From: Robiginitalea aurantiaca
Lineage (GTDB): Bacteria; Bacteroidota; Bacteroidia; Flavobacteriales; Flavobacteriaceae
Assembly (NCBI RefSeq): GCF_030380815.1
Contig: NZ_JAUDUY010000011.1
Coordinates: 1 to 64,000 of the forward strand
DNA length: 64,000 bases
Direction of reading: 5' to 3'
Both the position numbers and the translations under genes were made by a program. Shown here one piece after another: positions 48,905 to 64,000 of the stretch. A model generated the notes under the pieces. It did not search any database. It saw only the letters and a program-made list of their open reading frames with translations, and was not told the DNA's origin. Each line of letters starts with the position of its first letter. The first letter of the stretch is position 1.

Positions 48905-49033
48905 GATACGAGGCATTAAAGGAAAGCTGGCTTATGATTGTACTTTGGAAATAAAGACAGTTGTTGTCAGGACCCATTTGGGAATAGGTTCAGGGATCGC
49001 CGGGTTAGGGAAACTGTTGGGATGGTTTTTTGG

Positions 49034-49321
49034 CTATTCTACGGTAAAACGAAACACCTCTGAAATCGATTCATTCCCGGCCTGGTCCCGGGTTATTATT
49101 TGCCAGAAATAGTTCCCTGTGTCAACAGGGATTGGATCTGTCTGTGTGTCGGTCAATTCTGAGCGGAACAGTGGAGGAGGATTCTCCCGGCCAAAATAAA
49201 CATCGTACCCCAAGATATCATCATCCAGGTCATTGGCCTCCCAGACGAGGGTTACCTCATCCTGTCCGGCCGGAAAGTTCTGACCATTTCCAGGGGCGAT
49301 AACCAATTCGGGTGCACAACC
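49034..49321 (-). pseudogene. 5'-truncated remnant of a fibronectin type III-like lipoprotein
   Basis: Immediately after the porin stop codon (49324-49322), the same frame continues with GCAPELVIAPGNG and ~90 residues of a fibronectin III-like domain (VTLVWEANDLDDDILGYDVY, YFWQIITRDQAGNESIS) up to a stop at 49034. A Cys followed by APEL looks like the mature N-terminus of a small lipoprotein, but the signal peptide is missing because that stretch is porin coding sequence. A TTG at 49306 could still start a 90-residue product, yet it would lack any export signal. I therefore read it as a decayed gene whose 5' end was deleted next to the porin gene. Confidence 0.55.
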
Positions 49322-50536
49322 CTAAAACGAAATATCCCATTGAACCCTGAAACGGGTCGTATTTTGCAGATCACCGGCCGATGTTTCAAAGTCAAAAACA
49401 GAGATCTCGGCAGTGAGTTTATTGCGATGTCCCCCTTTAAAAAACCAGTTGAGCCCAAGTGTTAATTCTTCCTCCCGATCCTCCTTTTGGTCTGTATTCG
49501 GAATGTATTGCGCATACCGAACCGCTAATTCTAATGGTTTTGGGATGACTTCCCAGAGGTTGTAAAAAAAGTAACCTGCCTGGTAATAGCTCCCTGTAAG
49601 CCGGGTGGTGCCGCCATTTATCTTATCGATGATTTCCTTGGTGTGAAATTCATTTTGCCAGGAGAAGCCCCGCCACATAAAAGCGGTTTCCAAAAGTCCC
49701 TGATTCACCCGGTACTGTCCGGGCAACCCTTCATCAAAACCTGATAGCTGTCCCCCGCCTGCCTGTGAAAACCGGGTAAAAGGACTCCGGTTTGTAAGGG
49801 CACCCAAGGCAATTAGGGCCGTAGGTTCTTTATGAAAAAAGAGGTCTGAGCCGGTCATTTCCAGTTCGCGTCCTAAAAAATTCCATTGCAGCCTTCCCAC
49901 ATACATAAAGTTGGAATCGTCGTTTTCAACAACACCGCGTCCCGTTCCTGTCAGCACGGATGCGTGATAGGTGAAATCTGCCAGGCTGCCTGGAAACACA
50001 CGTCCGTAAAAGGAAATACCCATTTGCCTGTCTACGGTGAATGGCCTGTTAATTATAGAGCGATCCGCAAGTTGTTGTTTTCCGGAGGAAATTACGCGTT
50101 CTCGATTGTAGTACGTTTTCCACTGTCCTACCTTGATTTTGAATTCGGGAAGCCTTTCGAACATGATCCTGAAATCCAGTAAGTTTCCCTGGGAAAGTTC
50201 ATACTCCCAGTAGTATTTCAGGTAGGGCTTAAACGCATGCCCACCTACCTTTAAGCGCGCCCTGTTTATCTTAAAAACCGGCTGATCACTATCCAGGTCG
50301 TCAAAGGTTAAGGGATTCTGATCACCGGGGGTTGCGAACCGAAATTGCAGGCGTGATTCAATATGTAACTGGAACCGATCATCTGATGTTGAAAACTGAA
50401 AACCCTTGTCGGTGTATTCCAGCTCAATTTTAGATTTGCCTATGGAATCGTTCTGTGCCCGGGCACTAAAGAGCAGGAAGGTCATTCCTATGGCAAAACA
50501 GGTGCGAATTGCGATGGATTTATAAAGGCAGGGCAT
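49322..50536 (-). CDS. OprO/OprP-type porin
   Basis: A 404-residue outer-membrane protein. A signal peptide (CFAIGMTFLLFSARAQ) is followed by a 16-strand-type barrel with the phosphate-selective porin family signatures RLQFRFA, KINRARLKVGGHAFKP, KIKVGQWKTYYNRERV and the C-terminal NTTRFRVQWDISF, which ends in Phe as barrel proteins do. The family carries phosphate, pyrophosphate or other anions. Upstream lies the GH17 gene of the polysaccharide locus in the same direction, 73 bases before; whether they share a transcript is unclear. Confidence 0.85.
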   Translation of the reverse strand: MPCLYKSIAIRTCFAIGMTFLLFSARAQNDSIGKSKIELEYTDKGFQFSTSDDRFQLHIESRLQFRFATPGDQNPLTFDDLDSDQPVFKINRARLKVGGHAFKPYLKYYWEYELSQGNLLDFRIMFERLPEFKIKVGQWKTYYNRERVISSGKQQLADRSIINRPFTVDRQMGISFYGRVFPGSLADFTYHASVLTGTGRGVVENDDSNFMYVGRLQWNFLGRELEMTGSDLFFHKEPTALIALGALTNRSPFTRFSQAGGGQLSGFDEGLPGQYRVNQGLLETAFMWRGFSWQNEFHTKEIIDKINGGTTRLTGSYYQAGYFFYNLWEVIPKPLELAVRYAQYIPNTDQKEDREEELTLGLNWFFKGGHRNKLTAEISVFDFETSAGDLQNTTRFRVQWDISF

Positions 50537-50609
50537 AGGGATTCAAGGGCTTAAAATCCCAAAATAACCAAAATTCTTTGCTTAGTCCTTTGATTTAGTT
50601 TCGAACTGC

Positions 50610-51494
50610 TCAGAATTTTAGACTTTCCTCTTTATCCCAAAGTCCCCAATAGGCACCAACGTCACCTTCTGCGCCCACTTTCCAGGATTCGTCAAAAGAT
50701 GAAAAGTAAAAGACCTCAATCCCATCTTCTTCTGCCCATTTCTGGGTATTGATAAAGTATTTAAGGAAATTCTCGAACGAAGGATGTGCACCCCCCGTAC
50801 TGCTCCCGGTACTGGGCCATCCTGTTTCAGAAATAATCACTTTTTTTCCGTTCCCAGCCTTTAAAGCCCTGTGAAACATGTCCTTCATGTACAAAATGGA
50901 ATACTCCAGACTACATCCCTCCCAGAAGGGGTAGCAGTTGGCCAGAATGACATCACAGGCCTCTGAGATTCTGGGATGGTCGGCAAACTCATAGTACGCA
51001 TCTACATATCCGACCGGGATGTCCGGAACTGCCTGTTTTACCTGATTTATAAAGCCGAGGAGTTCGTCTTCTTTCAGGTCTCCCCTAAGCAGTACTTCGT
51101 TCCCGACAGCTGCAATATCTACGTATCCTTCTCTGGCAAGGGCTATAAGGTTCGCGACTTCTTCCCGGTTGATCTCCGGGTCATCCCCCAACCAGGCGCC
51201 TACCATCGTTTTGATTCCAAATTCTTTGGCGATCCGTGGAATTTCCTCGTTCCCCTCAGTACATGAAAATGATCTGATCCACTTTGTATACGGCCGTATA
51301 ATCTCCATCCGCCTCCGAATCTGGTCTTCAGAGATGTGATCTCCAGGTTTTTGACCTTCCTCATAGGGACTGAAACAGAGGCCGTGCATGCCCATCGCCA
51401 GGACCTCCCTCGCCATTTCTTTTAAGGACTCCCCGGTTATTCCCGTTAAATCCGTGGCAGCCAGGGCAAGGCGTTTATCTCTTCTGTATGACAT
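50610..51494 (-). CDS. Cytoplasmic GH17 beta-1,3-glucan-active hydrolase
   Basis: A 294-residue GH17 TIM barrel without a signal peptide. The acid/base Glu133 lies in AVGNEV and the nucleophile Glu223 in ISETGWPSTG, with NCYPFWEG and YFSSFDESWK, all typical of GH17. It closely resembles the C-terminal domain of the MFS fusion encoded just upstream (gap of 3 bases), so the two arose by tandem duplication. Lacking an export signal, it should cut imported beta-1,3-gluco-oligosaccharides in the cytoplasm; transglycosylation cannot be excluded. It is the last gene of the beta-glucan operon. Confidence 0.87.
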   Translation of the reverse strand: MSYRRDKRLALAATDLTGITGESLKEMAREVLAMGMHGLCFSPYEEGQKPGDHISEDQIRRRMEIIRPYTKWIRSFSCTEGNEEIPRIAKEFGIKTMVGAWLGDDPEINREEVANLIALAREGYVDIAAVGNEVLLRGDLKEDELLGFINQVKQAVPDIPVGYVDAYYEFADHPRISEACDVILANCYPFWEGCSLEYSILYMKDMFHRALKAGNGKKVIISETGWPSTGSSTGGAHPSFENFLKYFINTQKWAEEDGIEVFYFSSFDESWKVGAEGDVGAYWGLWDKEESLKF

Positions 51495-51497
51495 GAT

Positions 51498-53861
51498 CTA
51501 TTCGTATTTTAATTGTTCATTTTGGTCCCAAATACCCCAACCAGCGCCAACATCGCCTTCGTGATGGACCTTCCAGGATTCGTCGAAGGAAGAGAAGTAA
51601 AAGAGTTCCACCCCGCTTTCCCGGTGCCATTTACTGACGTTAATAAAATATTTCATGGCGTTTATGGAGGAGGGTTCAGCGGCTTCCGTATTGCTTCCTT
51701 TGTTAGGCCAGCCCGTTTCCGTTAAGATTACGCGTTTGCCTTTGGCAACCTCTAAAGTCAGTCTGTGCATCTGCCTTAGGTACCCGGCCGCATCTTTGAT
51801 ATCAGAACCTTCCCAGAAAGGATAACAATTGGTCAGAATAACATCACAAGCCGCTATGAGTTCTGGGCGTTCAATCAATTGATAATAGGCATCGACGTAG
51901 CCTACCGGAATGGCCGGCAGGGCTTTTTTAACCCGGCTCAGGTATTCGAGTATTTCAGCCTCGGACAGCTCATTTCGGAGTAAAACTTCATTCCCAACGG
52001 CAGCAATGTCGACCAACCCGGCATTCCCCAGGGCAATAAGGTTCTGGATTTCTTTCTCATTCCGAGCTTTGTCCCTGCCAATCCAGGCACCCACAATTGT
52101 CTTTAACCCTTTTTCTTTTGCGACTTTGGGGATAAACTCATTTCCATCTGTACAGGAAAAAGAACGCACCCATTTGGTGTAGGGTTCGATAACTTGCATT
52201 CGATTTCGAATCTGCCCCTCGTCTAGCTGGTCTCCTATGTCCTGGCCCTGAGAGTAAGGACTAAAACACAACCCATGTACTCCTTGTTGCAGTGCATCGG
52301 AGAATAGCCCTTTTATTTCAGAATCACTTCTGGAGGTGAAATTCACATCAGGGGCTAAATCCAGTTTGAGTTCCCCGGAGACCAGGGACTTCAATTTATC
52401 AGACGGATAAGAAGCGGATGGGGCAGACGGTGAAATTGGATCTTCTTTCTGTCGTTTGTCGAGTGCCTCCCTTATTTCATTCGCCCGCTCTTCAGTTACA
52501 TCGTAGTCCCACATAACGAACATGGCAATGAGGGTCCCTAAGATTGGAACGCCCGAATAAAAGGCCCTCAAACCCGTAATGGCCTGTTCAGTCTGAACGG
52601 TTGCATCTGATTCAAAACCAACAACGGATAAAATAGCCCCGCTCAATAACCCTGCAATGGCGAACCCGAATTTCACCATCCACCAGTAAATAGCCCCGAA
52701 GATGCCTTCCCTTCGTTTTCCGCTGGTCAGCTCGTCAAGGTCGATTACATCCGCGGTCATTGACATCATCAGGACAAACAAACTGCCAATGCCAAATGAA
52801 AAGAATGGAAGGGCAAAAATAAACATGTACGGTTTTCCGGGGATAAAGAGGAACCACAGCATGATATATCCAATAACAGAGATCCCCTGTGACGTCACAA
52901 AGGCCCTCTTTTTCCCCATGACCTTCGACATTTTTGTGACTACGGGAATTACTAAAAATGTGGTTATCAAAGCCCCAAGGCTGCCGAAAAGGGTTGGCCA
53001 GATACCCGCCGCTCCGGCATCTCCGTTAAAGAGGTAGTAGACCACGATAAAAAAGGAGAATGCAGCGATGGTATTAAAGGCATTAAAGATGAAAAATGTG
53101 GCAATGCATAATTTTCGGAACGGTTTGCATTTGAAGGCCTCAACAAACCCCTGAAGTATTTCTTTAAGGCTGCCCCCAATATTACTGACTGTCAGGGGAG
53201 AATAATCCTCATTGACCGTGGACTTGCTTTTGAGGAAAATAGCCGGAACCATCGCAAAAACCATACAAATTACCCCCACCCAGATTGCCAGGGTTCGGGT
53301 GGCGACATCTGCAGATTCAAACCAGCCCTGATCGTACATGACCACCCAGAACCAGGGTGCGATAACCCATGCCCATTGCCCGATCCATTGAGCCACCGCC
53401 ATGATACTCGTGCGCTCATGGAAATCGTTGCTCATCTCATAACCCATGGCCACGTAGGGCACACTAAAAATGGTAAGGCCCAAATAGAAGACAAAGGACC
53501 AGAGCAGGAAATAGGTGAAATTGTAGTCCACCCCGTTCTCCCGGTACAATTGCCACATTATTACGAAGGATACCCCCATAATTATGGCGCCCAATAATAC
53601 GTATTGCCGTCGCCTGCCCCAGCGTGATTTTGTATTGTCGGATATGAAACCCATGATCGGGTCGGTAATGGAATCGAAAACCCTTGGGAGAAAAAACAAA
53701 ACGCCCCACATCCACCCGGGAAAACCGAGATCCTGAACCAGGACTACCATAAAAATCGCCAATGCTGCCGGAAACATCTGATTCGCGAGCATTCCAATTC
53801 CAAAAGCAACCTTATCGCTAAATGGTACTTTGGCCGAAGTCGTACTATTTGAGTTACTCAT
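51498..53861 (-). CDS. Sugar:cation symporter (MFS/GPH type) fused to a GH17 hydrolase domain
   Basis: A 787-residue fusion. Residues ~1-465 are a 12-helix transporter of the glycoside-pentoside-hexuronide (MelB-like) type, with ITDPIMGFISDNTKSRWGRR in the first cytoplasmic loop. A ~45-residue linker rich in Ser/Pro/Lys follows, and residues ~510-787 are a complete GH17 domain: DIAAVGNEVLLR holds the acid/base Glu and TETGWPNKG the nucleophile. In GPH transporters both termini face the cytoplasm, so the GH17 domain would meet oligosaccharides as they emerge. The gene overlaps the GH30 gene by 4 bases and is followed by a homologous GH17 gene after 3. The frame is intact and the start ATG (53861) normal. 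Confidence 0.9.
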   Translation of the reverse strand: MSNSNSTTSAKVPFSDKVAFGIGMLANQMFPAALAIFMVVLVQDLGFPGWMWGVLFFLPRVFDSITDPIMGFISDNTKSRWGRRRQYVLLGAIIMGVSFVIMWQLYRENGVDYNFTYFLLWSFVFYLGLTIFSVPYVAMGYEMSNDFHERTSIMAVAQWIGQWAWVIAPWFWVVMYDQGWFESADVATRTLAIWVGVICMVFAMVPAIFLKSKSTVNEDYSPLTVSNIGGSLKEILQGFVEAFKCKPFRKLCIATFFIFNAFNTIAAFSFFIVVYYLFNGDAGAAGIWPTLFGSLGALITTFLVIPVVTKMSKVMGKKRAFVTSQGISVIGYIMLWFLFIPGKPYMFIFALPFFSFGIGSLFVLMMSMTADVIDLDELTSGKRREGIFGAIYWWMVKFGFAIAGLLSGAILSVVGFESDATVQTEQAITGLRAFYSGVPILGTLIAMFVMWDYDVTEERANEIREALDKRQKEDPISPSAPSASYPSDKLKSLVSGELKLDLAPDVNFTSRSDSEIKGLFSDALQQGVHGLCFSPYSQGQDIGDQLDEGQIRNRMQVIEPYTKWVRSFSCTDGNEFIPKVAKEKGLKTIVGAWIGRDKARNEKEIQNLIALGNAGLVDIAAVGNEVLLRNELSEAEILEYLSRVKKALPAIPVGYVDAYYQLIERPELIAACDVILTNCYPFWEGSDIKDAAGYLRQMHRLTLEVAKGKRVILTETGWPNKGSNTEAAEPSSINAMKYFINVSKWHRESGVELFYFSSFDESWKVHHEGDVGAGWGIWDQNEQLKYE

Positions 53862-55366
53862 ATTTTCTGGCTTGATTGGTTATGTGATGGGATGACCACA
53901 GTTTGAATGGCCTGTGGACTTATAGTTATGTGGGTGGAACGTTCCCCGAGGGTCAATTTAAAATTCTTCGCCGAAGCCTCCTGATTGAGGACTACCACGA
54001 CCACAGACCCATCCGGGTTCTCGGCCGCAGTGACCATTAGGGAATCGTCCGGGTTCTGGAAACCTATTCGCACAGCGCCCGGCCTGATATATCGGCTAAA
54101 ATGGGCGAGGGTATGATACAGAGGCGTATAATAGACCTCATCCTGATCGGGGTCTACAATAACAGGGGCCACACACCAGTTTTCGAACCAGTTTGGACCT
54201 CCCTGCCGGTCCAGGACCATATTCCAATCGATCCATCCATCCACCCAGTTATTCATGCAGCCAATGATATCACGGGCGTACCTGTATACCGGGACATACT
54301 TTGGATGCAGGTGTTTGTCCTTTTCAGGGGCCCAATCCCAACCCCAGTCGGTCGCTTCCTTAGACCAATACCAGTCATCATCCTGCCACTTCGGGATTTC
54401 CGCATCCACACAGGCCTCCGATTGAATCAGGTATTTGTCGGGAGCTTTCTCATGAGCGAATTGCAGATTATCCGGAAACCAGTCGAAAGTACTGCCATAC
54501 CAGTGCACAGCCGTACCATCAAAGTACTTGGCGGCCTCCTTATCTGTATACATGGCATTGACCCAATCCTTTAATTCTTCCCCCCTATTCTGATCGTAGC
54601 CAAGAATTTTGGCCGAGTGCCCGTCTGCCCTGAGTTTTGGTCCGAGATGGTCCTTTACAAAAGCCGTCATTTCTTCCGGGGTAAAATGCATGCTCTCCCA
54701 GTTGTTGTCATTGCCAAGGGGTTCATTCTCGACGGTAAAACCCCAGATCGGTATTCCCTCCTTCGCATACGCATCCAGGTACCTGGAAAAAAACAATGCC
54801 CAGGTATCGTAATACTCCGGCAGGAGTTTTCCCCCGCGCCAGTCTTTATTGTCCTTCATCCAGGGTGGGGCGGTCCAGGGAGAAGCTATGATCTTAAACC
54901 CATCCTCCGATATTGCCATAGCTTCCCTGATCATCGGAATCAGATCTTCCCGATCTTCATCAATGGAGAAGTGCTCCAGTTGCAGATCTCCGGCAACAGG
55001 GGCATATGAGTAATTACCCAGGGAAAAATCACAGGAATTCATGTGCGTTCGCGTAAGGGAATACCGTGCCCCGTCAGATCCAAAATAGGCCTGCAATATT
55101 GCTTTTCGATTTTCCGGGCCCAATCGGTTCAGCAGGGAGGCCGATGCTTCTGTAAAAGAACCTCCAAAGCCCGTAATGGTTTGAAATCGCTGTTCAGGAT
55201 TTAGAATTAGTACTCCGGCACCTTCATCTTCTGCGAATTCGGTAACCTCGGTTAACTTGTTTCCTGAGGCGGCCGTTTCAAATACTTCAACCGCTAATTT
55301 ATCCTCTGTGTTGCACGAGCTGAGCATCAAACCAATCGTAAAAAAAGCAAGCGTTTTGTATAACAT
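53858..55366 (-). CDS. GH30 beta-glucanase lipoprotein (probable beta-1,6-glucan debranching)
   Basis: A 502-residue protein with a lipoprotein signal (TIGLMLSSC, Cys18). GH30 signatures are GFGGSFTEASA, SLTRTHMNSCDFS, the acid/base Glu in WGFTVENEPLG near 213, and the nucleophile Glu in IQSEACVD near 316; the C-terminal beta-sandwich ends in VVIPSH. In laminarin loci GH30 enzymes remove beta-1,6-linked glucose side chains, and the neighbours (GH16, three GH17, GH3) support that. Periplasmic, anchored in the outer or inner membrane. Transcriptional overlap with the transporter fusion suggests tight coupling. Confidence 0.9.
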   Translation of the reverse strand: MLYKTLAFFTIGLMLSSCNTEDKLAVEVFETAASGNKLTEVTEFAEDEGAGVLILNPEQRFQTITGFGGSFTEASASLLNRLGPENRKAILQAYFGSDGARYSLTRTHMNSCDFSLGNYSYAPVAGDLQLEHFSIDEDREDLIPMIREAMAISEDGFKIIASPWTAPPWMKDNKDWRGGKLLPEYYDTWALFFSRYLDAYAKEGIPIWGFTVENEPLGNDNNWESMHFTPEEMTAFVKDHLGPKLRADGHSAKILGYDQNRGEELKDWVNAMYTDKEAAKYFDGTAVHWYGSTFDWFPDNLQFAHEKAPDKYLIQSEACVDAEIPKWQDDDWYWSKEATDWGWDWAPEKDKHLHPKYVPVYRYARDIIGCMNNWVDGWIDWNMVLDRQGGPNWFENWCVAPVIVDPDQDEVYYTPLYHTLAHFSRYIRPGAVRIGFQNPDDSLMVTAAENPDGSVVVVVLNQEASAKNFKLTLGERSTHITISPQAIQTVVIPSHNQSSQKI

Positions 55367-55400
55367 TTTATCTGGATTCTAAGGTTGTTGTGCAAGGTGT

Positions 55401-56690
55401 TCAAGGTACTTCTGATTTTTCATTTGCCGATGGAGGCACCAGTACTTTGTGCATTAAAGTGTCCTTATTCCCACCGAAGGTCTTTTTTATCTTATTTCCA
55501 TTCCGGGTTACCTTTGAAAAAACCCCCTGATCCACCAGATCCCAGAGCGCGTATTTGGCCTGCCCTTCTACGGTGAACAATCCGAAATGGTTTTCGGACC
55601 CCATTCTGTTCGCATCATCCTTCCAGGGCTCGTTAAAGGCCTCAAAATAAAAGCAGGAAATACCCTGTTGCTCGGTCCATTCCCTGATTAACTTATGATA
55701 GAGGGCTTGTTTGTACTCATCTGTGGCCCGGGAACCTTCAGGACCGTATAAACCCTCGGAAATACTCGCCCATCCGGTTTCTCCAATATGTATGGGCTTA
55801 TCGTATCCTAAACCCTTAACATAGTCGGAGACCGCATTATACTGGTTCCTGGCAAAGGCAACCGCCCGGACCATGGCGGCGTCTATTTTCTCAATATCCG
55901 TCAGGTTTTTTTCCTTTTCAGGTATGTACCAGAATTCCGGGTTGTAATGGGAATTGTGATAGGGATAGGTATGCATTGAGATATAATCGACAGCCTCGAC
56001 CAGTTTTGCCAGGGCTTCCGTGTGATATTCCGCGTCACCCCCGCCCCAGGAGGCAAAATCATCAGAACTGGTAATCCATAGGGATTCGGGCAGACGTCCT
56101 TCTGCTTTGAGATTCTGTAGATGTACAACCCATTTGAGAATAACTTCGGGTTGCACATAATAACTGGTGGCCCATTTAACCATCGCCTCGTTTCCAACAG
56201 CAATAACTTTGACAATATCCGGATACGCATTCGCCAAAGTAACCGCTTGCGCAATTTCCCCAGCATTGGCAGGGCTTTCCTCATGGTGATCTGGTTCCTG
56301 GTCGGTCCAGGCATTTTTACAGTCGATCCACGCCCCGAGCATGACATACATTTCAAAATCGGGATCTTCTGATTTCAGCTGGCGTATTGCCAAAAGCAAA
56401 TTTGACGCCTGGTAAAGATGAACATTATAGGTGCGCAGGATTTTGATCCCCATTGCCTCAAGAATCCTTAAATCCTCCTTGAGCTGCTCCAGGGTGGGCT
56501 GCACATCCCTGGTGCTTTGTCGATATCCGCCGTAGGAAATTGCAGGGTATTTAGGGTTTCCCAGGATATCTTCAGCTGTTAATTCCATAGTTTCTTCGTG
56601 CTGAATTACTTGTGAATTTTCCTTTTGACTACAGGAGGAAAGGATCAAAAAACACGCGACCGACATTCCAATTTTCACAACCGATTTCAT
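55401..56690 (-). CDS. GH17-family lipoprotein
   Basis: A 429-residue exported protein: lipoprotein signal CFLILSSC (Cys20), then a GH17-type TIM barrel with IAVGNEAMVKW (acid/base Glu near 168) and IGETGWASISEG (nucleophile Glu near 303), and FYFEAFNEPWKDD. It is distantly related to the two other GH17 proteins of this locus. The likely role is beta-1,3-glucan cleavage in the periplasm or at the surface. It lies 34 bases before the GH30 gene and 61 after GH3 in one operon. Confidence 0.86.
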   Translation of the reverse strand: MKSVVKIGMSVACFLILSSCSQKENSQVIQHEETMELTAEDILGNPKYPAISYGGYRQSTRDVQPTLEQLKEDLRILEAMGIKILRTYNVHLYQASNLLLAIRQLKSEDPDFEMYVMLGAWIDCKNAWTDQEPDHHEESPANAGEIAQAVTLANAYPDIVKVIAVGNEAMVKWATSYYVQPEVILKWVVHLQNLKAEGRLPESLWITSSDDFASWGGGDAEYHTEALAKLVEAVDYISMHTYPYHNSHYNPEFWYIPEKEKNLTDIEKIDAAMVRAVAFARNQYNAVSDYVKGLGYDKPIHIGETGWASISEGLYGPEGSRATDEYKQALYHKLIREWTEQQGISCFYFEAFNEPWKDDANRMGSENHFGLFTVEGQAKYALWDLVDQGVFSKVTRNGNKIKKTFGGNKDTLMHKVLVPPSANEKSEVP

Positions 56691-56751
56691 TTGCTATCCG
56701 TTAATCTGTTCTTTGTCTGTTAACTGGTCTCCTAATGTTCCCCTGACCCAA

Positions 56752-58494
56752 TCATCCGTAAGATAATCCATATCCCAGGGGAAACAAGGGCGTTACCGAA
56801 TCATCCCAAAAATTAGGGCCGTATTTGCCCTCTAAATCCTCGAGGGAAGCCGGCCAGCAATGTGGCAATTTACCTTTAAAATCATACTTTCCGAAGAGCA
56901 CTTCCGCTATGCCATCCCCTTCGGATCCCGGTAACCATGCCGCGATAAAGGCATCTGCCTTTTCTAGCTCAGGGGTCACTACTAACGGCCGGCCGGAAAT
57001 AAGCACAACAACTGTGGCCACACCCTGATCATGGTAATTAGCAATGACTTCTTTATGTTTTTTGGACAACTCGAGTTTCAGGGTATTTGACTCATGCCCG
57101 ATATCGCCAAAAAATTCTGCGTAGGGAGGTTCTCCGACACAAATAATGGCCAGGTCGGCATCCGGATGTTTTTCCCGGCCTTCCGCATCGTAAATCACAT
57201 CACCTTCTGCCATACGCGCTATACCCTGAAGGATGGTTGTGGCTCCGGCGTAATTCCGGTCTGTGCCCTGCCAGTCAATTGTCCAACCCCCGGATTGTAA
57301 TCCGGAGTTGTCCCCATGTGCCCCTACTACGATAATTTTGGCAGCGCCGGGGCTTACCGGAAGTACTTCATTCTTATTTTTTAGCAAAACAAGGGATTCC
57401 CTTACCGCCTGACGGGCAACGTCCCGGTGCTCCTGACATCCAATTTTGTCTATCAGGGCAGCCGAGGGATAGGGATTATCGAAAAGTCCCAGCCTGAACT
57501 TCTGGCGAAGGATGCGTCTTACTGCGTCGTCAATGCGACCCCCTGATACATATCCGGTTTCCACGGCCGTTCTTAATCCTTCTTGAAATAATTCGAGGTC
57601 GCCGTCAACGGCCATCACCATATCAATGCCCGCATTGATGATATCTGCCTCTCCAAATCTGGAATACGCCTTCCAGTCCGATACGACAATCCCATCAAAT
57701 TGCATTTCCCCTTTGAGGGTACCTGTTATAAGTTCCCGATGGGCATGCATCGGAATCCCGTCAAAAGTGTTGAAAGAAGCCATAACAGCTCCCACACCGC
57801 TAGCCACCGCAGCGCGATAGGGAGGTAAAAGCCGATCTTTTATTTCCGATGCGCTCAAGGTAGTAGCCCCTCCTTCGATTCCATTTTCGGTAGAACCGTC
57901 CCCTACAAAATGTTTGGCGGTCGCCATTACCGTATGCACATCCGACAAACGCCCCTGATGACCCCGGACCGAGGCTTGTGTGAGTTTTTCTGTAATTGGG
58001 GTACTTTCGGAAAAAGCCTCATAGACCCTTCCCCACTTTTCATTAAACGGAATTGCAATGCAGGGTGAAAAAACCCAGTTAAACCCCGTTGCTTGGGCCT
58101 CAAGAGCCGTAATTGCTGCAGCTTTTTCTACCAGATCCGCATTCTGTGATGCCCCTAACCCTATGTTATGTGGAAAGATCGTCGCCCCCTCATAGGTATT
58201 CTGGCCGTGTACAGCATCCACTCCAAATAACAGCGGAATGCCCGGACCTGAAGCCAGTGCCATTTCCTGCAAATTGCGGAACCGCTGCTGCCACCCCATT
58301 GCCCCTTCCCCGGGCAGTGGTCCCTGGGTATGGATTACAGAGCCAATTCGCCCGGCAGCCACTTCGCCCTCGGTAAGTGGCTCAAAATGCAATACCTGGG
58401 TCATTTGTCCGATTTTTTGCTCCAGGGTCAGCCCTTTGAGCAAGGCGTCAATTTTTCGTTCGGTTTCGATAGCTTCAGTGATTTTCAGGTCCAT
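56752..58494 (-). CDS. GH3 beta-glucosidase without export signal
   Basis: A 580-residue GH3 enzyme if started at the ATG at 58494; another ATG at 58527 would add 11 residues that do not form a signal peptide. Typical motifs: FGVDAVHGQN, KHFVGDGSTENG, nucleophile Asp in IVVSDWKAY near 272, and LPGSEGDGIAEVLFGKYDFKGKLPHCWP. It should release glucose from short beta-linked glucans. No export signal is seen, although most GH3 enzymes of such loci are periplasmic, so it may act in the cytoplasm on imported oligosaccharides along with the two cytoplasmic GH17 domains. Confidence 0.85.
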   Translation of the reverse strand: MDLKITEAIETERKIDALLKGLTLEQKIGQMTQVLHFEPLTEGEVAAGRIGSVIHTQGPLPGEGAMGWQQRFRNLQEMALASGPGIPLLFGVDAVHGQNTYEGATIFPHNIGLGASQNADLVEKAAAITALEAQATGFNWVFSPCIAIPFNEKWGRVYEAFSESTPITEKLTQASVRGHQGRLSDVHTVMATAKHFVGDGSTENGIEGGATTLSASEIKDRLLPPYRAAVASGVGAVMASFNTFDGIPMHAHRELITGTLKGEMQFDGIVVSDWKAYSRFGEADIINAGIDMVMAVDGDLELFQEGLRTAVETGYVSGGRIDDAVRRILRQKFRLGLFDNPYPSAALIDKIGCQEHRDVARQAVRESLVLLKNKNEVLPVSPGAAKIIVVGAHGDNSGLQSGGWTIDWQGTDRNYAGATTILQGIARMAEGDVIYDAEGREKHPDADLAIICVGEPPYAEFFGDIGHESNTLKLELSKKHKEVIANYHDQGVATVVVLISGRPLVVTPELEKADAFIAAWLPGSEGDGIAEVLFGKYDFKGKLPHCWPASLEDLEGKYGPNFWDDSVTPLFPLGYGLSYG

Positions 58495-58579
58495 TTGGAA
58501 TTCTTTGCATAAGGAAAAGATTGGCATCCTATCTTTAAAATGCCAACCTTTTGGGTTCCTTATGGCATGCTGTTATTAG

Positions 58580-61408
58580 CTATTCCAGCCGTAAATCATC
58601 CAGGTAATAAGTCCCGCCATTTGTTATCGGACTGTCGGTCTGATCATTGTCTGGTTTAATGACCAACTGGCTGTAGGCTGTTGGCCCGGCGGGTAATCCG
58701 GTAAAGGTAAACTCAACCTCCGTCCATTCATTCGCATTGGACACAGTCGCGAATACCGGGGCCGGATTTCCGATACTGCCATCGTTCGGATTGGCCAGTA
58801 ACTCAAACCGGAAAACCGCGTTGGCCTTTGTCGAGTAAATCTTGATCTTAAAGGTATTTGTGGTGGTCAGATCAAAATTCGAAGGAAACACGTTCTGTAT
58901 CCCGGCAAAGAAATCGGACCCCGTTGGCTTATCCACCTGCAGTACAAAATCGGAGGTGTTGATTCCCGATTTTGATGGATTTGCGTTGATCTCCGAAGTC
59001 AGGCCAGCACCAAAATTCTGGTCGGATAAAAAGGTTTCACACCCTTCAAAATCCAGGGGAAGTTGGGTCGCGGCGACCAGTGTACCACTGGTACAACCGT
59101 TATTCCCAGGACCGGTTCCACCGCCGCTATAAAGCCTGAAATCATCGATATAGTAGGTCTGTGCAGTATTCGTATTGAGTTCGAAAAAGAGGATGATCCG
59201 GTCGTATTTATCCGTTTCGCTGCTCGGGAAATCGAAGGTGAGTTCTTCCCATGCACTTGCTGTGGTGGTCACTGCCCCTACCTCGGTGTTTATAGCCCCA
59301 TTGGTCTTATCTTCCAGTTTGAGCAGGACATTGGTACCTGCAACAGGTGACCATACTTTGATCTTAAATCCGGAATATGCATTGAAATCAAATTTGGAAT
59401 CAAAGACCATTTGATTATTGGCAAAGAGTGCGCTACCACTGCGGTCGATCTGACCAACCTGGCAGGATGGATTTACCGCATTGTCGAAATCCGGATTCGA
59501 AACAAAGCTGTAGACTGCATCATAGGATTCGATAAATGCCCCCGGATCTGTCTGGAAAGTAATATCCAGGTTGGACGCATCCAGAGACTGGCTGGTCTCG
59601 GGCACACAACTGGGGCCTCCCCCACCGGTACCATAGACCCTGAAGTCATCGATGTAATAAGTGGCTTCGATATTGGTAGTGATATCGAAGAACAGGACGA
59701 TCTTGTCATAGGTGTCGCTTGCCGAAGCCGGGAAATCAAATGTCAGTTCCTCCCAGGCATTCCCTGTGGTGGTTACCGCCCCTACTTCTGTATTGATGGC
59801 GCCATTTGTTTTGTCCTCCAGTTTTAATAACACGTTTGTTCCTGCTACAGGTGCCCAAACTTTCAGTTTAAACCCTGCATTGGCATTAAAATCAAATTTG
59901 GAATCAAAGACAATCTGATTATTGGCAAAAGGAAGGCCGGGATCCCGATCGAGCTGTCCAACTTTACAAGACGGATTTATCGCATTGTCAAAATCAGGGT
60001 TGTCGATATAGGAATAGGCTGATCCATCACTTATGATAAGGCTGCCGGGGTCTGATTGAAAGGTCAGATCAAAATCCGCTGCACTGAGGGATTGAGATGT
60101 CTCCGAAGTACAGGTAGCGCCGCCTCCATCCGAATACAGCGCAAAGTCATCGATATAATAGGTCGCCCCGCTATCAGTATTGATATCAAAAAACAGGACG
60201 ATTTTGTCATATGTATCACTGGCTGCACCCGAGAAATCAAAAGTCAGTTCCTCCCAGGCATTTCCTGTGGTGGTTACTGCACCCACTTCCGTGTTGACAG
60301 CGCTATTGGACTTGTCTTCCAATTTCAGTAAGACGTTGGTGCCTGCAACCGGAGCCCAAACTTTCAGTTTAAATCCTTCATTTGTATTAAAATCAAATTT
60401 GGAATCGAAAACAATTTGGCTGTTGGCAAAAGGCAAACTTGGGTCCCGATCAATCTGGCCTGCCTTACACGAAGGATTGACATCGTTCTCCGTATCGGGA
60501 TTGTCGATATAGGAATACGCTGCCCCGTCCCCTATAATGGCAGTACCGGGGTCTGTCTGGAAAGTCAGGTTAAAGTCTGAGGCGTCGAGGGACTGCTCGG
60601 TTTCAGCCGTACAGTCATCGCCTCCGGGATCGGTTCCGGCCTGCTCCACGTCATCGAAATAGAAGATGCCCGCCGTTGTACCCGGACCATCCACAAATAG
60701 GGTAAGCCTGGAATAGGATGCGGATGAAGTGAAATCGAAGGCGATCTCTTCCCAACCGGTACCTCCATGACTGGCACTGGTCTCAGCGGCGGCGCCGGTT
60801 CCCTCTTCGAGTTTCATCAAAACATCAATCGGGGTTTCCGACCAGAAATTCATGGTTATGGTCTTCTCTGTGGTCAGGTCAACCGGGGTCTCCAGGTCAA
60901 AGAACAAGCCTTCAAAAGCCGTTCCTCCATTGGTAATCTCACCCACGTTCGTTTCCTTGTCATTTGAACCCGAAACATCGGGGTTGGCAACAATCCTGAA
61001 TGCTGCCCCTTCAAAAGTTGAAGGATCGTATATCACATCGGTTTCATCAAAAGTTATCGGCAGGGAAACTCCGCGCTTCAGGGATACGACCAATTCATCT
61101 TCGAAGGTATTTGATGCCCCTGCCTGATTTGAGGCTACAAGGGTTACTTTGTACGTACCGCTGCTCTCATATGTCTTTATCGGGTCTATCTCCTCAGACT
61201 TCGTACCATCCCCAAAGTCCCATATATAGGTCCGCGCCCCTTCTGAAACATTGATAAAAGTTACTGTTCCCGTATCGGGGTTCTGAGTATAGGTAAATGC
61301 AGACTTCACCTGGGGCAATTTATCCATATCGCTTTTGGTACAGCCCAAAAAGGTTAGTACAAAAACCCCTATAGCAAGTCCTCTGCCTAGAATATTTAGA
61401 TGTTTCAT
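58580..61408 (-). CDS. Surface glycan-binding lipoprotein: PKD domain plus five carbohydrate-binding-like modules
   Basis: A 942-residue lipoprotein (LTFLGC, Cys23). Residues ~35-110 are a PKD domain (YIWDFGDGTKS). Then come five beta-sandwich modules of about 150-170 residues: one at ~115-265, three closely related copies at 267-433, 434-601 and 602-770, and a divergent one at ~775-942. Each copy has FANxQIVFDSKFDFN, FKLKVWAPVAGTNVLLKLED, AVTTTGNAWEELTFDF and TYYIDDFRxY, a CBM-like pattern. It probably holds laminarin at the cell surface near GH16. It is placed between GH16 and GH3 in the locus, 9 bases after GH16. Confidence 0.87.
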   Translation of the reverse strand: MKHLNILGRGLAIGVFVLTFLGCTKSDMDKLPQVKSAFTYTQNPDTGTVTFINVSEGARTYIWDFGDGTKSEEIDPIKTYESSGTYKVTLVASNQAGASNTFEDELVVSLKRGVSLPITFDETDVIYDPSTFEGAAFRIVANPDVSGSNDKETNVGEITNGGTAFEGLFFDLETPVDLTTEKTITMNFWSETPIDVLMKLEEGTGAAAETSASHGGTGWEEIAFDFTSSASYSRLTLFVDGPGTTAGIFYFDDVEQAGTDPGGDDCTAETEQSLDASDFNLTFQTDPGTAIIGDGAAYSYIDNPDTENDVNPSCKAGQIDRDPSLPFANSQIVFDSKFDFNTNEGFKLKVWAPVAGTNVLLKLEDKSNSAVNTEVGAVTTTGNAWEELTFDFSGAASDTYDKIVLFFDINTDSGATYYIDDFALYSDGGGATCTSETSQSLSAADFDLTFQSDPGSLIISDGSAYSYIDNPDFDNAINPSCKVGQLDRDPGLPFANNQIVFDSKFDFNANAGFKLKVWAPVAGTNVLLKLEDKTNGAINTEVGAVTTTGNAWEELTFDFPASASDTYDKIVLFFDITTNIEATYYIDDFRVYGTGGGGPSCVPETSQSLDASNLDITFQTDPGAFIESYDAVYSFVSNPDFDNAVNPSCQVGQIDRSGSALFANNQMVFDSKFDFNAYSGFKIKVWSPVAGTNVLLKLEDKTNGAINTEVGAVTTTASAWEELTFDFPSSETDKYDRIILFFELNTNTAQTYYIDDFRLYSGGGTGPGNNGCTSGTLVAATQLPLDFEGCETFLSDQNFGAGLTSEINANPSKSGINTSDFVLQVDKPTGSDFFAGIQNVFPSNFDLTTTNTFKIKIYSTKANAVFRFELLANPNDGSIGNPAPVFATVSNANEWTEVEFTFTGLPAGPTAYSQLVIKPDNDQTDSPITNGGTYYLDDLRLE
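59100..60610 (-). repeat. Three tandem ~500-base repeats inside the glycan-binding protein gene
   Basis: Units at 60610-60110, 60109-59605 and 59604-59100 encode the three near-identical CBM-like modules. Many differences at the DNA level are silent, so the protein copies are more alike than the DNA; the period is about 167 codons. Confidence 0.85.
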
Positions 61409-61417
61409 AGTTGTGAT

Positions 61418-62317
61418 TTATTCGTTTGGTCCGTTATATTTATAAGCCCTCACGTAGTCTACGAGCATTTGTTGCGGAAAGACCGTTTCCTGGTTGGGGG
61501 AACCTACGAAGGACCCTCCAACAGCTACATTGAGGATAAGGTAAAATGGCTGATTGAAGACCCAGTTATCCGGATTGGGCAGGTCTTCTCGGGTAATCTG
61601 ATTATAGAGCACGTCATCCACGTAATAATTCACGTAATCCGGACCCCATTCAATGCCAAAGATGTGAAATCCGGTATCGAAGCGATCGTTCATCAGATCA
61701 AAACGTTTGGTTATAGCCTCCCCGGCCGAATACCCCGGTCCGTGTACGCTACCAAAGAGAATGGTGGGTTCCTGGCCCCGAATTTCCATAATATCAATTT
61801 CTCCACATTCAGGCCATATCACCTCATCGGAATTGGCACCCAACATCCAGAATGCCGGCCAAATACCTTGTCCGTAAGGTGCCTTGATCCGGGCTTCGAA
61901 CCTCCCGTATTTCTGCTCAAATTTGTCCTTGGTCAAAATGCGTGCAGAAGTATAGGCAGATCCTTCAAAATTCTCCTGACGGGCAGTAAAAATGAGGTAT
62001 CCGTTCTGAACCGTAATGTTTTCAGGGCGGTCGGTGTAGTATTGCAATTCGTTGTTCCCCCACCCATCGCCCCGGGTGCCTATATCGTAGTTCCACAGTG
62101 AACTGTCCGGTGCTCCATTAACGTCGAATTCATCCTGAACCGTAATTTCGGTGAAGTTGGCGACACGCTGATCCTCACCATAACTGCATCCTAAATTTAG
62201 AATCAAGATGCCTGTAAGTGCGGCCAACGTCTTCAGTCCTGAAAGCTTTCCAAGCCATTTCAGGTAAGGAGGACTTAGTATATCTGTACTCATTTCCAGT
62301 CTTATTTTCTGATTCAT
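61418..62317 (-). CDS. GH16 endo-beta-1,3-glucanase (laminarinase) lipoprotein
   Basis: A 299-residue protein with a lipoprotein signal (LILNLGC, Cys44; the n-region is long, and a second ATG eight codons in is possible). The GH16 catalytic motif GEIDIME (residues ~171-177) has both active-site Glu residues, flanked by YTSARI, FWMLGANS and FHIFGIEWGPDYV. These match laminarinase-type GH16 (no agarase or carrageenase insert is seen). It should cut beta-1,3-glucan chains at the cell surface. Upstream, 26 bases away, is a second glycan-binding lipoprotein. Confidence 0.92.
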   Translation of the reverse strand: MNQKIRLEMSTDILSPPYLKWLGKLSGLKTLAALTGILILNLGCSYGEDQRVANFTEITVQDEFDVNGAPDSSLWNYDIGTRGDGWGNNELQYYTDRPENITVQNGYLIFTARQENFEGSAYTSARILTKDKFEQKYGRFEARIKAPYGQGIWPAFWMLGANSDEVIWPECGEIDIMEIRGQEPTILFGSVHGPGYSAGEAITKRFDLMNDRFDTGFHIFGIEWGPDYVNYYVDDVLYNQITREDLPNPDNWVFNQPFYLILNVAVGGSFVGSPNQETVFPQQMLVDYVRAYKYNGPNE

Positions 62318-62343
62318 TACTCTTTTTTCAATTTTTTCCTGTT

Positions 62344-63756
62344 TTACTCTTTGTAGAAATAGATGTTATCTACCAAAATATTCGATATGGTTGCATCAGA
62401 AACAAAGAAGTACAGCGCCAGATTTTCGGTATTTAGTCCAACAAAGTCGGAGAGCGGAATATCGAGGCTGACCCATTGCCGGGATATCAGTGTAGGCGCC
62501 TGGAATTCAACAGAAGCCTCTGTATCATCTTCTGTTCCTATTACATTATCAGGTCCCGCATCCACCAGGAGTATCCGCAGGAAGTCCCCTGGTGCAATTT
62601 GCTGATCTTCCACCTGAATATCCAGATGGTAGTGTGTCATCTCAGAGGCATTGACTGTATTTTGAGTCCGAATCGCAACAAAATTCAGGTTCGTATAGCG
62701 GATTACATTATCTCCGCCAATGTTGATGTCAGCACCTCCAAGGGTGGTTTGCCCATCAGGAATAAAGAACCCGTTATAGTACTCTACAGGTACATCGGCG
62801 TAGGCATCACTAAAGACCGAAATTACATCTTCCGGGTTTCGGGCCGGAGGTACAGGGGCCGTTTCAAAACTGCCCTCAACTTCCAGGGTAAGGGAGCCGG
62901 CGGCTTTGACGCCTGCAAGCAGGGCCGTAATTGTAGCCGTACCCGTGCCGACAATAGAAATCACTCCGGATTCACTTACCCGTGCCACCTCATTATCTGT
63001 AGAACTGAAGTTAAAATAGGCAGGGGCAGCCGAAACGGTCTGGTTGCCACCCGAGGCGAGATTAAAGGTTTGCGTGAGGCCTGTAACAGGTATCTGCACA
63101 TCCAGAAATGTTGTTTCCACACGATCTTCCCCGTTAAAAATTGCAGGTTTTGGCTGGCCTAGTGTACCTAACTTCTCGAATTGCAGCTCATCGATCCAAA
63201 AGGTGAACCCGTCCCCATCCTCCGGTCCGGCAGCGTAGAAAAACAAGCCCTTTTCCACAGTGAGCTTAAAGGGGTCCGGAATTGGAATCGTGTATTTGGA
63301 CCATCCTGTTCCCACCCGAAGATTGGGAATGTTAACGCGGTATTTGTTTTCGCCAAAATCGACTCCAAAACCAATTTCATTGATCGAGGTCGCTTTTGAG
63401 GCTTTGGCCCAAAATGTAAGGGCGTCATAATCTGATAAATCCCGGCCTCCCATATCGGGAAATACTGCTCCCGCAAAGGAACCGGAAGGATCCCCGAAAT
63501 TCGGTATGTCAAACCGCATTGAAGATGTGCCGTCATACCTGATTTCTGTATCGACGGTGAAGGCATCGAGTTTGGAGCCAGCAAAAGGAAAATACTCCAG
63601 GCCACCGCTGAATCCATCGATAAAAACCAAAGGATTGTTCGGGAACGTGGCAAAATCAACTTTGTCCGAATACTCACGTTCACATCCTGCAAACAAACCG
63701 ATAAAGGCCAGAGCAAGCAGTGAATTTTTTAGATAAATAAACAGTTCGGTTTTCAT
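62344..63756 (-). CDS. Surface glycan-binding lipoprotein with CBM-like and BIG2 domains
   Basis: A 470-residue lipoprotein (FIGLFAGC, Cys25). Residues ~45-205 form a CBM-like beta-sandwich (GTSSMRFDIPNFG, YDALTFWAKAS, WSKYTIPIPD). Residues ~215-305 are a bacterial Ig-like BIG2 domain (VARVSESGVISIVGTGTATITAL). Residues ~310-470 form a second carbohydrate-binding module (THYHLDIQV, RQWVSLDIPLSDF, ILVDNIYFYK). It has no catalytic motif and fits a SusE/F-like substrate-binding role for beta-glucan with the PKD protein. It lies 14 bases after the partial gene at the window edge. Confidence 0.85.
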   Translation of the reverse strand: MKTELFIYLKNSLLALAFIGLFAGCEREYSDKVDFATFPNNPLVFIDGFSGGLEYFPFAGSKLDAFTVDTEIRYDGTSSMRFDIPNFGDPSGSFAGAVFPDMGGRDLSDYDALTFWAKASKATSINEIGFGVDFGENKYRVNIPNLRVGTGWSKYTIPIPDPFKLTVEKGLFFYAAGPEDGDGFTFWIDELQFEKLGTLGQPKPAIFNGEDRVETTFLDVQIPVTGLTQTFNLASGGNQTVSAAPAYFNFSSTDNEVARVSESGVISIVGTGTATITALLAGVKAAGSLTLEVEGSFETAPVPPARNPEDVISVFSDAYADVPVEYYNGFFIPDGQTTLGGADINIGGDNVIRYTNLNFVAIRTQNTVNASEMTHYHLDIQVEDQQIAPGDFLRILLVDAGPDNVIGTEDDTEASVEFQAPTLISRQWVSLDIPLSDFVGLNTENLALYFFVSDATISNILVDNIYFYKE

Positions 63757-63770
63757 TTTTACGTCATTTT

Positions 63771-64000
63771 TTATTTACCAATGTTAATATGTATGTACGT
63801 GCGTATCTCCCATTCCGTACCGTCAGGGAAACCTACAGGGCTTATGATGGAATCATCGGCAAATTCGAGTGATTCATTTGGCAGGTACCTGGGTGAGAAC
63901 TCATTCATGGTACGCCAGGTACCCCGGATCCCTATCTGGGTATTCGGCAATACGAACCAATCGGGTATCCCGAGTGTCGTGGATACATCTAACATCAATT
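63771..64000 (-). CDS. C-terminal fragment of an unidentified outer-membrane-like protein
   Basis: The frame is open to the window edge; only the last 75 or so residues are seen. Alternating polar/hydrophobic strands (TQIGIRGTWRTMNEF and EWEIRTYIHINIG) look like the end of a beta-barrel or beta-sandwich. I cannot recognise SusC or SusD C-termini in it. As the first visible gene of the operon it probably belongs to the glycan-uptake apparatus. Confidence 0.55.
   Translation of the reverse strand, partial: LMLDVSTTLGIPDWFVLPNTQIGIRGTWRTMNEFSPRYLPNESLEFADDSIISPVGFPDGTEWEIRTYIHINIGK

Follow-up and report, generated by a model that had tools for sequence, protein, structure and literature searches.

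A MelB-like transporter joined in one frame to a GH17 domain in a putative laminarin utilisation cluster of Robiginitalea aurantiaca

The window analysed here is a 64,000-nucleotide stretch of DNA from Robiginitalea aurantiaca (RefSeq assembly GCF_030380815.1, contig NZ_JAUDUY010000011.1, positions 1 to 64,000), and it contains a minus-strand gene whose predicted product joins an N-terminal MFS transporter to a C-terminal GH17 domain. This gene, its parts and its neighbours are as follows (window coordinates, strand, feature and, in brackets, basis):

49322..50536, minus: porin O/P-like gene downstream of the tandem GH17 gene, a candidate operon member only (Pfam)
50610..51494, minus: tandem stand-alone GH17 of 294 aa, MlGH17B type, no signal peptide seen (Pfam GH17, residue match)
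51498..53861, minus: MFS-GH17 fusion gene, 787 codons (ORF, Pfam MFS_2 and Glyco_hydro_17, orthologues)
51501..52346, minus: GH17 catalytic domain, residues 506-787 (Pfam, phmmer, fold match)
51717..51719, minus: codon of Glu715, presumed nucleophile (in 96/96 fused and 104/104 stand-alone rows)
51987..51989, minus: codon of Glu625, presumed acid/base (in 96/96 fused and 104/104 stand-alone rows)
52347..52445, minus: linker, residues 473-505, low-confidence and fast-evolving (pLDDT, pN)
52446..53861, minus: MFS part, residues 1-472, 12 transmembrane helices and a helix at 457-472 (Pfam, AlphaFold2, Foldseek)
53858..55366, minus: GH30, beta-1,6-glucanase-like, lipoprotein-like N-terminus by eye (ORF, Pfam)
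55401..56690, minus: GH17A-type, lipoprotein-like N-terminus by eye (ORF, Pfam)
56752..58527, minus: GH3, no evident signal peptide by eye (ORF, Pfam)
58580..61408, minus: PKD/CBM-like surface lipoprotein, by eye (ORF, Pfam)
61418..62317, minus: GH16 (ORF scan)

The fusion gene runs from an ATG at 53861 to a TAG at 51498 without an internal stop, and the plus-strand reading of the same interval meets many stops; the intact 787-codon frame claimed in a preliminary description of this DNA is thus borne out by the ORF listing, and its strand, which that description did not give, is minus. The linker has AlphaFold2 pLDDT values below 50 at residues 473-483 and is the fastest-changing portion of the fusion protein (pN = 0.26 for residues 461-505), and the span from E457 to G530 is 73 residues long in the window protein and 65-102 across the 67 aligned fusions (alignment A3, a hand-thinned set of 67 from 98 fused ORFs). 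The AlphaFold2 model made from 67 sequences has a pLDDT of 84.8 and a pTM of 0.58, with the mutual placement of the two domains not fixed; a first model from 6 sequences (pLDDT 66.8, pTM 0.49) was discarded as poor.

The upstream GH30 gene shares 4 bases with the fusion gene, and the tandem GH17 gene (50610-51494, minus strand) follows it after a gap of exactly 3 bases, as had been noted before. A stand-alone GH17 also lies directly downstream in 68 of the 76 fused loci with room for one (from the best 80 of at least 551 relatives). Further upstream of the GH16 gene are genes for a 470-aa protein, a 1077-aa protein with a weak GH2 barrel match and a Y_Y_Y/Reg_prop protein. The make-up of this gene cluster is that of a putative beta-1,3/1,6-glucan (laminarin) utilisation locus. 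The ORFs scanned, as far as contig position 78380, include no SusC/SusD pair, and within 49000-64000 predicted promoters and terminators were no more numerous than in shuffles (17 vs 20.4 and 17 vs 17.6, respectively). The 470-aa protein (62344-63756) is lipoprotein-like, belongs to the same gene run, has zero Pfam matches and is possibly glycan-binding. The window GH30 also begins like a lipoprotein (by eye), whereas the Muricauda GH30 is predicted to be cytoplasmic in the accessible text of PMC13188888.

A contig scan with one genome per species found the fusion in a single frame in 78 of 80 loci, these being the best 80 of at least 551 relatives and so a selection that favours full-length fusions; the MFS + GH17 architecture, for which the preliminary description had proposed a search of protein databases, is widely conserved. 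Among 395 sampled genomes of the phylum 15 have the fusion, the window's own included (12 full-length by search and three, L116, L122 and L123, by ORF inspection), as do 6 of 60 relatives, again with the window's own genome included. Comparison with the closest relative (86% identity) gave pN/pS values of 0.046/0.697 for the MFS part and 0.109/0.755 for the GH17 part; in both domains synonymous differences are close to saturated and few amino acids have changed.

The N-terminal part had been described as a 12-helix GPH/MelB-type transporter, and Pfam MFS_2, the AlphaFold2 helices and the Foldseek match to MelB (9old) agree on this. MFS_2 matches residues 20-457 with 219 bits against a gathering score of 27, and the model aligns with 9old at a TM of 0.84 by target length, a 12-helix MFS fold; NCBIfam TIGR00792, the model of the GPH subfamily, scores 201.4 bits, below its cutoff of 231.35. 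By these profiles the MFS part is MelB-like and an MFS_2 member, yet not a formal GPH member by the TIGR00792 model. In MelB the residues to compare are the cation-site pair Asp55 and Asp59, Lys377, and the galactoside-binding sugar-site residues Asp19, Asp124 and Arg149. The equivalents of the first three, Asp63, Asp67 and Lys397, are kept in 67/67 aligned fusions, and the last three are replaced in the window protein by Gln28, Ser133 and Gln158, which are present in 65, 63 and 65 of the 67 aligned fusions, respectively. This pattern, cation-site residues kept and galactoside-binding residues swapped, fits a cation-coupled importer of a sugar other than galactosides. Compared with MelB, the Salmonella melibiose permease (4m64, 7l16, 9old), the window protein is alike in fold, in the cation-site Asp pair and in the Lys377 equivalent, but differs in its galactoside-binding residues and in the enzyme added at its C-terminus.

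If both the N- and C-termini of the transporter are assumed to be inside, the loops of the window protein have 27 Lys + Arg residues inside and 2 outside, and the inside count exceeds the outside count, by at least 22, in 67/67 aligned fusions (helix limits were taken from the AlphaFold2 model of 67 sequences). No membrane-spanning 19-residue stretch was found after the MFS part of the window protein (maximum mean hydrophobicity 1.33), and the highest post-MFS hydrophobicity among the 98 fused ORFs, 2.0, is located in the barrel core. A hydrophobic N-terminus is present in 0/105 stand-alone relatives of the GH17 domain vs 59/69 GH17A-type ORFs, the latter a loosely defined comparison set in which some starts are wrongly called. 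The charge pattern, the lack of a later membrane segment and the stand-alone relatives without a hydrophobic N-terminus together indicate that the GH17 domain is very probably cytoplasmic. The cytoplasmic C-terminus that had previously been deduced is supported by the loop charges and the absence of a further membrane segment, and the topology analysis gave this side instead of the predicted periplasmic C-terminus that the preliminary description had named as grounds for abandoning its reading.

That the C-terminal part is a complete GH17 domain with both catalytic Glu residues was likewise claimed earlier, and profile, phmmer, fold and residue matches all uphold it. Pfam Glyco_hydro_17 scores 41.7 bits against a gathering score of 28.2, with a match that covers only residues 711-787; the phmmer alignment with 4wtp, a solved fungal GH17 enzyme, extends over residues 550-776, and the modelled structure fits 4wtr at a TM of 0.86 by target length. 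The two catalytic Glu residues, E625 and E715, which from family knowledge we take to be the acid/base and the nucleophile, lie in a TIM barrel as in GH17 enzymes, and two acceptor-site residues, Trp683 and Glu684, occur in 96/96 fused rows. RmBgt17A, the Rhizomucor miehei beta-1,3-glucanosyltransferase (4wtp, 4wtr), shares this barrel, the catalytic Glu pair and the acceptor-site Trp/Glu, but it is a fungal stand-alone enzyme with Tyr102 where the fused domain of the window has Leu.

This Tyr aligns with position 136 of MlGH17B, a beta-1,3-glucanosyltransglycosylase of Muricauda lutaonensis, and its loss in RmBgt17A abolished transglycosylation (both from the available part of PMC11005184). 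Tyr occupies the position in 91 of 104 stand-alone rows (Leu in the other 13) and in only 5 of 96 fused rows, where Leu (63), Met (20), His (4), Gln (3) and Phe (1) are found instead; two other GH17 types at these loci mostly have Val. Within the window both the fused domain and the tandem GH17 have Leu. FbGH17B, a fusion from Formosa (below), has Met there according to the same portion of PMC11005184 and is reported to release glucose (PMC6246565), and this together with the Leu leads us to predict that the fused GH17 domain hydrolyses. The tandem gene product has E133, W191, E192, E223, F76, W101, F264, W271 and W283 at the MlGH17B numbers and, like MlGH17B in the text available, has no signal peptide; it has two of the three residues that mark an MlGH17B-type transglycosylase, Trp191 and Glu192, but Leu for Tyr136, and we predict weaker transglycosylation from it than from MlGH17B. 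Other loci (L023 9279-10208 and 15 similar ORFs) encode a third type of GH17 that also lacks a hydrophobic N-terminus; it often adjoins the stand-alone GH17, and where MlGH17B has Tyr136 it has Val or Ala.

Trees and residue counts were made after omitting L002 (same contig as L021), L046 (truncated), L015, L126 and domains of less than 400 bits (MFS) or 380 bits (GH17). The MFS tree was built by a quick method with SH-aLRT only, the first GH17 tree contains 145 of 200 rows, with near-duplicate loci removed by hand, and a careful GH17 tree contains 30 hand-picked fused rows, 32 stand-alone rows (random and named) and 6 outgroup rows. What was counted is sequences and not independent events, and near relatives of the L028 type remain in several of the counts. 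Clade MFS-A has 94 fused and 9 unfused among its 103 rows, in a sample biased to full-length matches, with the unfused ones scattered on the tree, and clade MFS-B has 18 unfused and 2 fused rows; the fused/unfused label needs 10 changes on this unrooted tree, in which gain and loss are indistinguishable. In the careful tree the stand-alone GH17s form one clade (100/99) with a single fused member, L116; a constraint holding the fused-type GH17s together (without L116) was not rejected (AU p 0.513). The window gene 50610-51494 is on the same branch as the other stand-alone GH17s, and by these trees the two tandem GH17s of the window are distinct branches.

Several loci depart from the common arrangement. 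The L116 gene (499-2961) joins an MFS-A transporter to a stand-alone-type GH17, and its product still contains the start motif with which the stand-alone gene begins, which marks it as a separate fusion. In L122 (295-2862) and L123 (1498-3993) a fused-type GH17 is attached to an MFS-B transporter; their GH17s are sisters, whereas the two transporters each have a different unfused relative as the nearest in the tree and in windowed identities, which points to partner exchange or separate events. A stand-alone-type GH17 adjoins the unfused MFS-A genes of L007, L048 and L063, and in L007 it is from such a stand-alone-type GH17 that a stop divides the transporter; four genomes with an unfused MFS-A gene (G122, G360, G298 and G388) gave no GH17 match of such kind at E 1e-40. 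These unfused variants imply that the fusion is not indispensable. Judged from the sequences, it is apparently old and widespread, sometimes lost and sometimes remade.

Six loci (L087, L090, L092, L095, L099 and L100) carry the fusion in metagenome-assembled genomes labelled Burkholderiales or beta proteobacteria. In the MFS-A tree they cluster together, with support, among the Bacteroidota, and four of the six have a stand-alone-type GH17 upstream, not downstream. Transfer between phyla is likely for these loci, and mis-binning may also explain them.

An MFS-GH17 fusion was already described in 2018, and the window gene repeats this published kind. In the part of Unfried et al. 2018 (PMC6246565) that is available, FbGH17B (FORMB_24740) of Formosa sp. 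Hel1_33_131 is such a fusion and is reported as a glucose-releasing exo-beta-1,3-glucosidase, coupled uptake and hydrolysis are suggested for it, and fusions like it are called common in marine Flavobacteriia. The accessible text of a 2023 paper (PMC10108472) places GH17-MFS fusions in the majority of the expressed variant 1 laminarin PULs from Bacteroidota and Gammaproteobacteria (SAR92, Luminiphilus, SAR86). As far as these sources extend, FbGH17B and the window protein both have an N-terminal 12-helix MFS and a C-terminal GH17 in one frame, at a laminarin locus with GH17A and GH30; FbGH17B is from another genus, has Met rather than Leu at the acceptor Tyr position, and its reported activity is its own. 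MlGH17A, MlGH17B and FbGH17B are discussed in PMC13188888, which in the passages available treats MlGH17B and FbGH17B as positional counterparts, whereas our trees put stand-alone and fused GH17s on different branches. No account of a Tyr difference between whole GH17 branches, or of separate fusions, was found in the literature searched, which covers few subscription journals. What is added here is the distinct branches of the tandem GH17s, the Tyr contrast, the separate fusion of L116, the fused-type GH17s on a different transporter in L122 and L123, and the lineages whose transporter has no fused enzyme.

We consider the gene product to be probably a MelB/GPH-type cation-coupled oligosaccharide importer with a tethered cytoplasmic GH17 beta-1,3-glucanase, encoded in a laminarin cluster. 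Laminarin would be cut and debranched by the envelope enzymes (GH16, GH17A-type and GH30), and the short beta-1,3-gluco-oligosaccharides produced would enter through the MFS part. On their exit at the inner mouth of the transporter they would meet the tethered GH17, whose hydrolysis would block back-flow. We infer the transporter substrate, the cation coupling and any gain from tethering; coupling of import to hydrolysis fits the predicted anatomy of the protein. A soluble cytoplasmic hydrolase would also block back-flow, so the tether is unneeded for the thermodynamic pull.

The fusion could instead be a convenience that gives existing neighbours a fixed 1:1 ratio and a membrane location, with no kinetic coupling or channelling, an account that might well hold although we would not choose it. 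Transporter and GH17 adjoin also when unfused (L007, with a 6-base gap, L009, L010 and L048), the linker is variable and of low confidence, and the MFS-A rows without a fused GH17 (9/103) are scattered on the tree, all of which suits this account; the 94 of 103 rows that keep the fusion, in the sample biased to full-length matches, and the existence of fusions with other partners (L116, L122, L123) count against it. We think it unlikely that the fused GH17 is mainly a cytoplasmic transglycosylase, lengthening or branching imported oligosaccharides so that none leave: the Tyr essential in RmBgt17A (PMC11005184, available part) is Leu here and Tyr in only 5/96 fused rows, and FbGH17B, with Met at this position, is reported to release glucose (PMC6246565, available part), even though the nearest solved relative, 4wtp, is a beta-1,3-glucanosyltransferase, the stand-alone relative MlGH17B is a transglycosylase and the acceptor-site Trp683 and Glu684 are in 96/96 fused rows. 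A periplasmic GH17 that feeds its product to the transporter is very improbable in view of the loop charges (27 vs 2), the absence of a further membrane segment and the stand-alone relatives without a signal peptide, although the accessible part of PMC6246565 does not state the side on which the fused GH17 lies. Finally, a frameshift or other sequencing or assembly error as the source of the joined frame was ruled out, being next to inconceivable with the fusion in 78 of the best 80 of at least 551 loci and in 15/395 genomes of the phylum, and the stop between transporter and GH17 in L007 involves a stand-alone-type GH17.

Laminarin, an algal sugar, is among the main sugars respired by marine bacteria, so the way they take up its fragments bears on the carbon cycle. 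An importer that carries its own hydrolase, as we read the window protein, would be a clean case for learning whether enzyme tethering speeds uptake, and the natural set of fused and unfused proteins and of fusions with other partners would allow tethering to be tested without design work. It is conceivable, and we put it forward tentatively, that tethering has been under repeated selection, with the module assembled more than once (MFS-A with fused-type GH17, MFS-A with stand-alone-type GH17 in L116, and MFS-B with fused-type GH17 in L122/L123), and that once the GH17 branches had split, hydrolysis fell to the tethered copy and transglycosylation to the stand-alone one, the tandem genes dividing imported glucan between breakdown and remodelling. 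If this were true, lineages without one state or the other would be a ready natural experiment.
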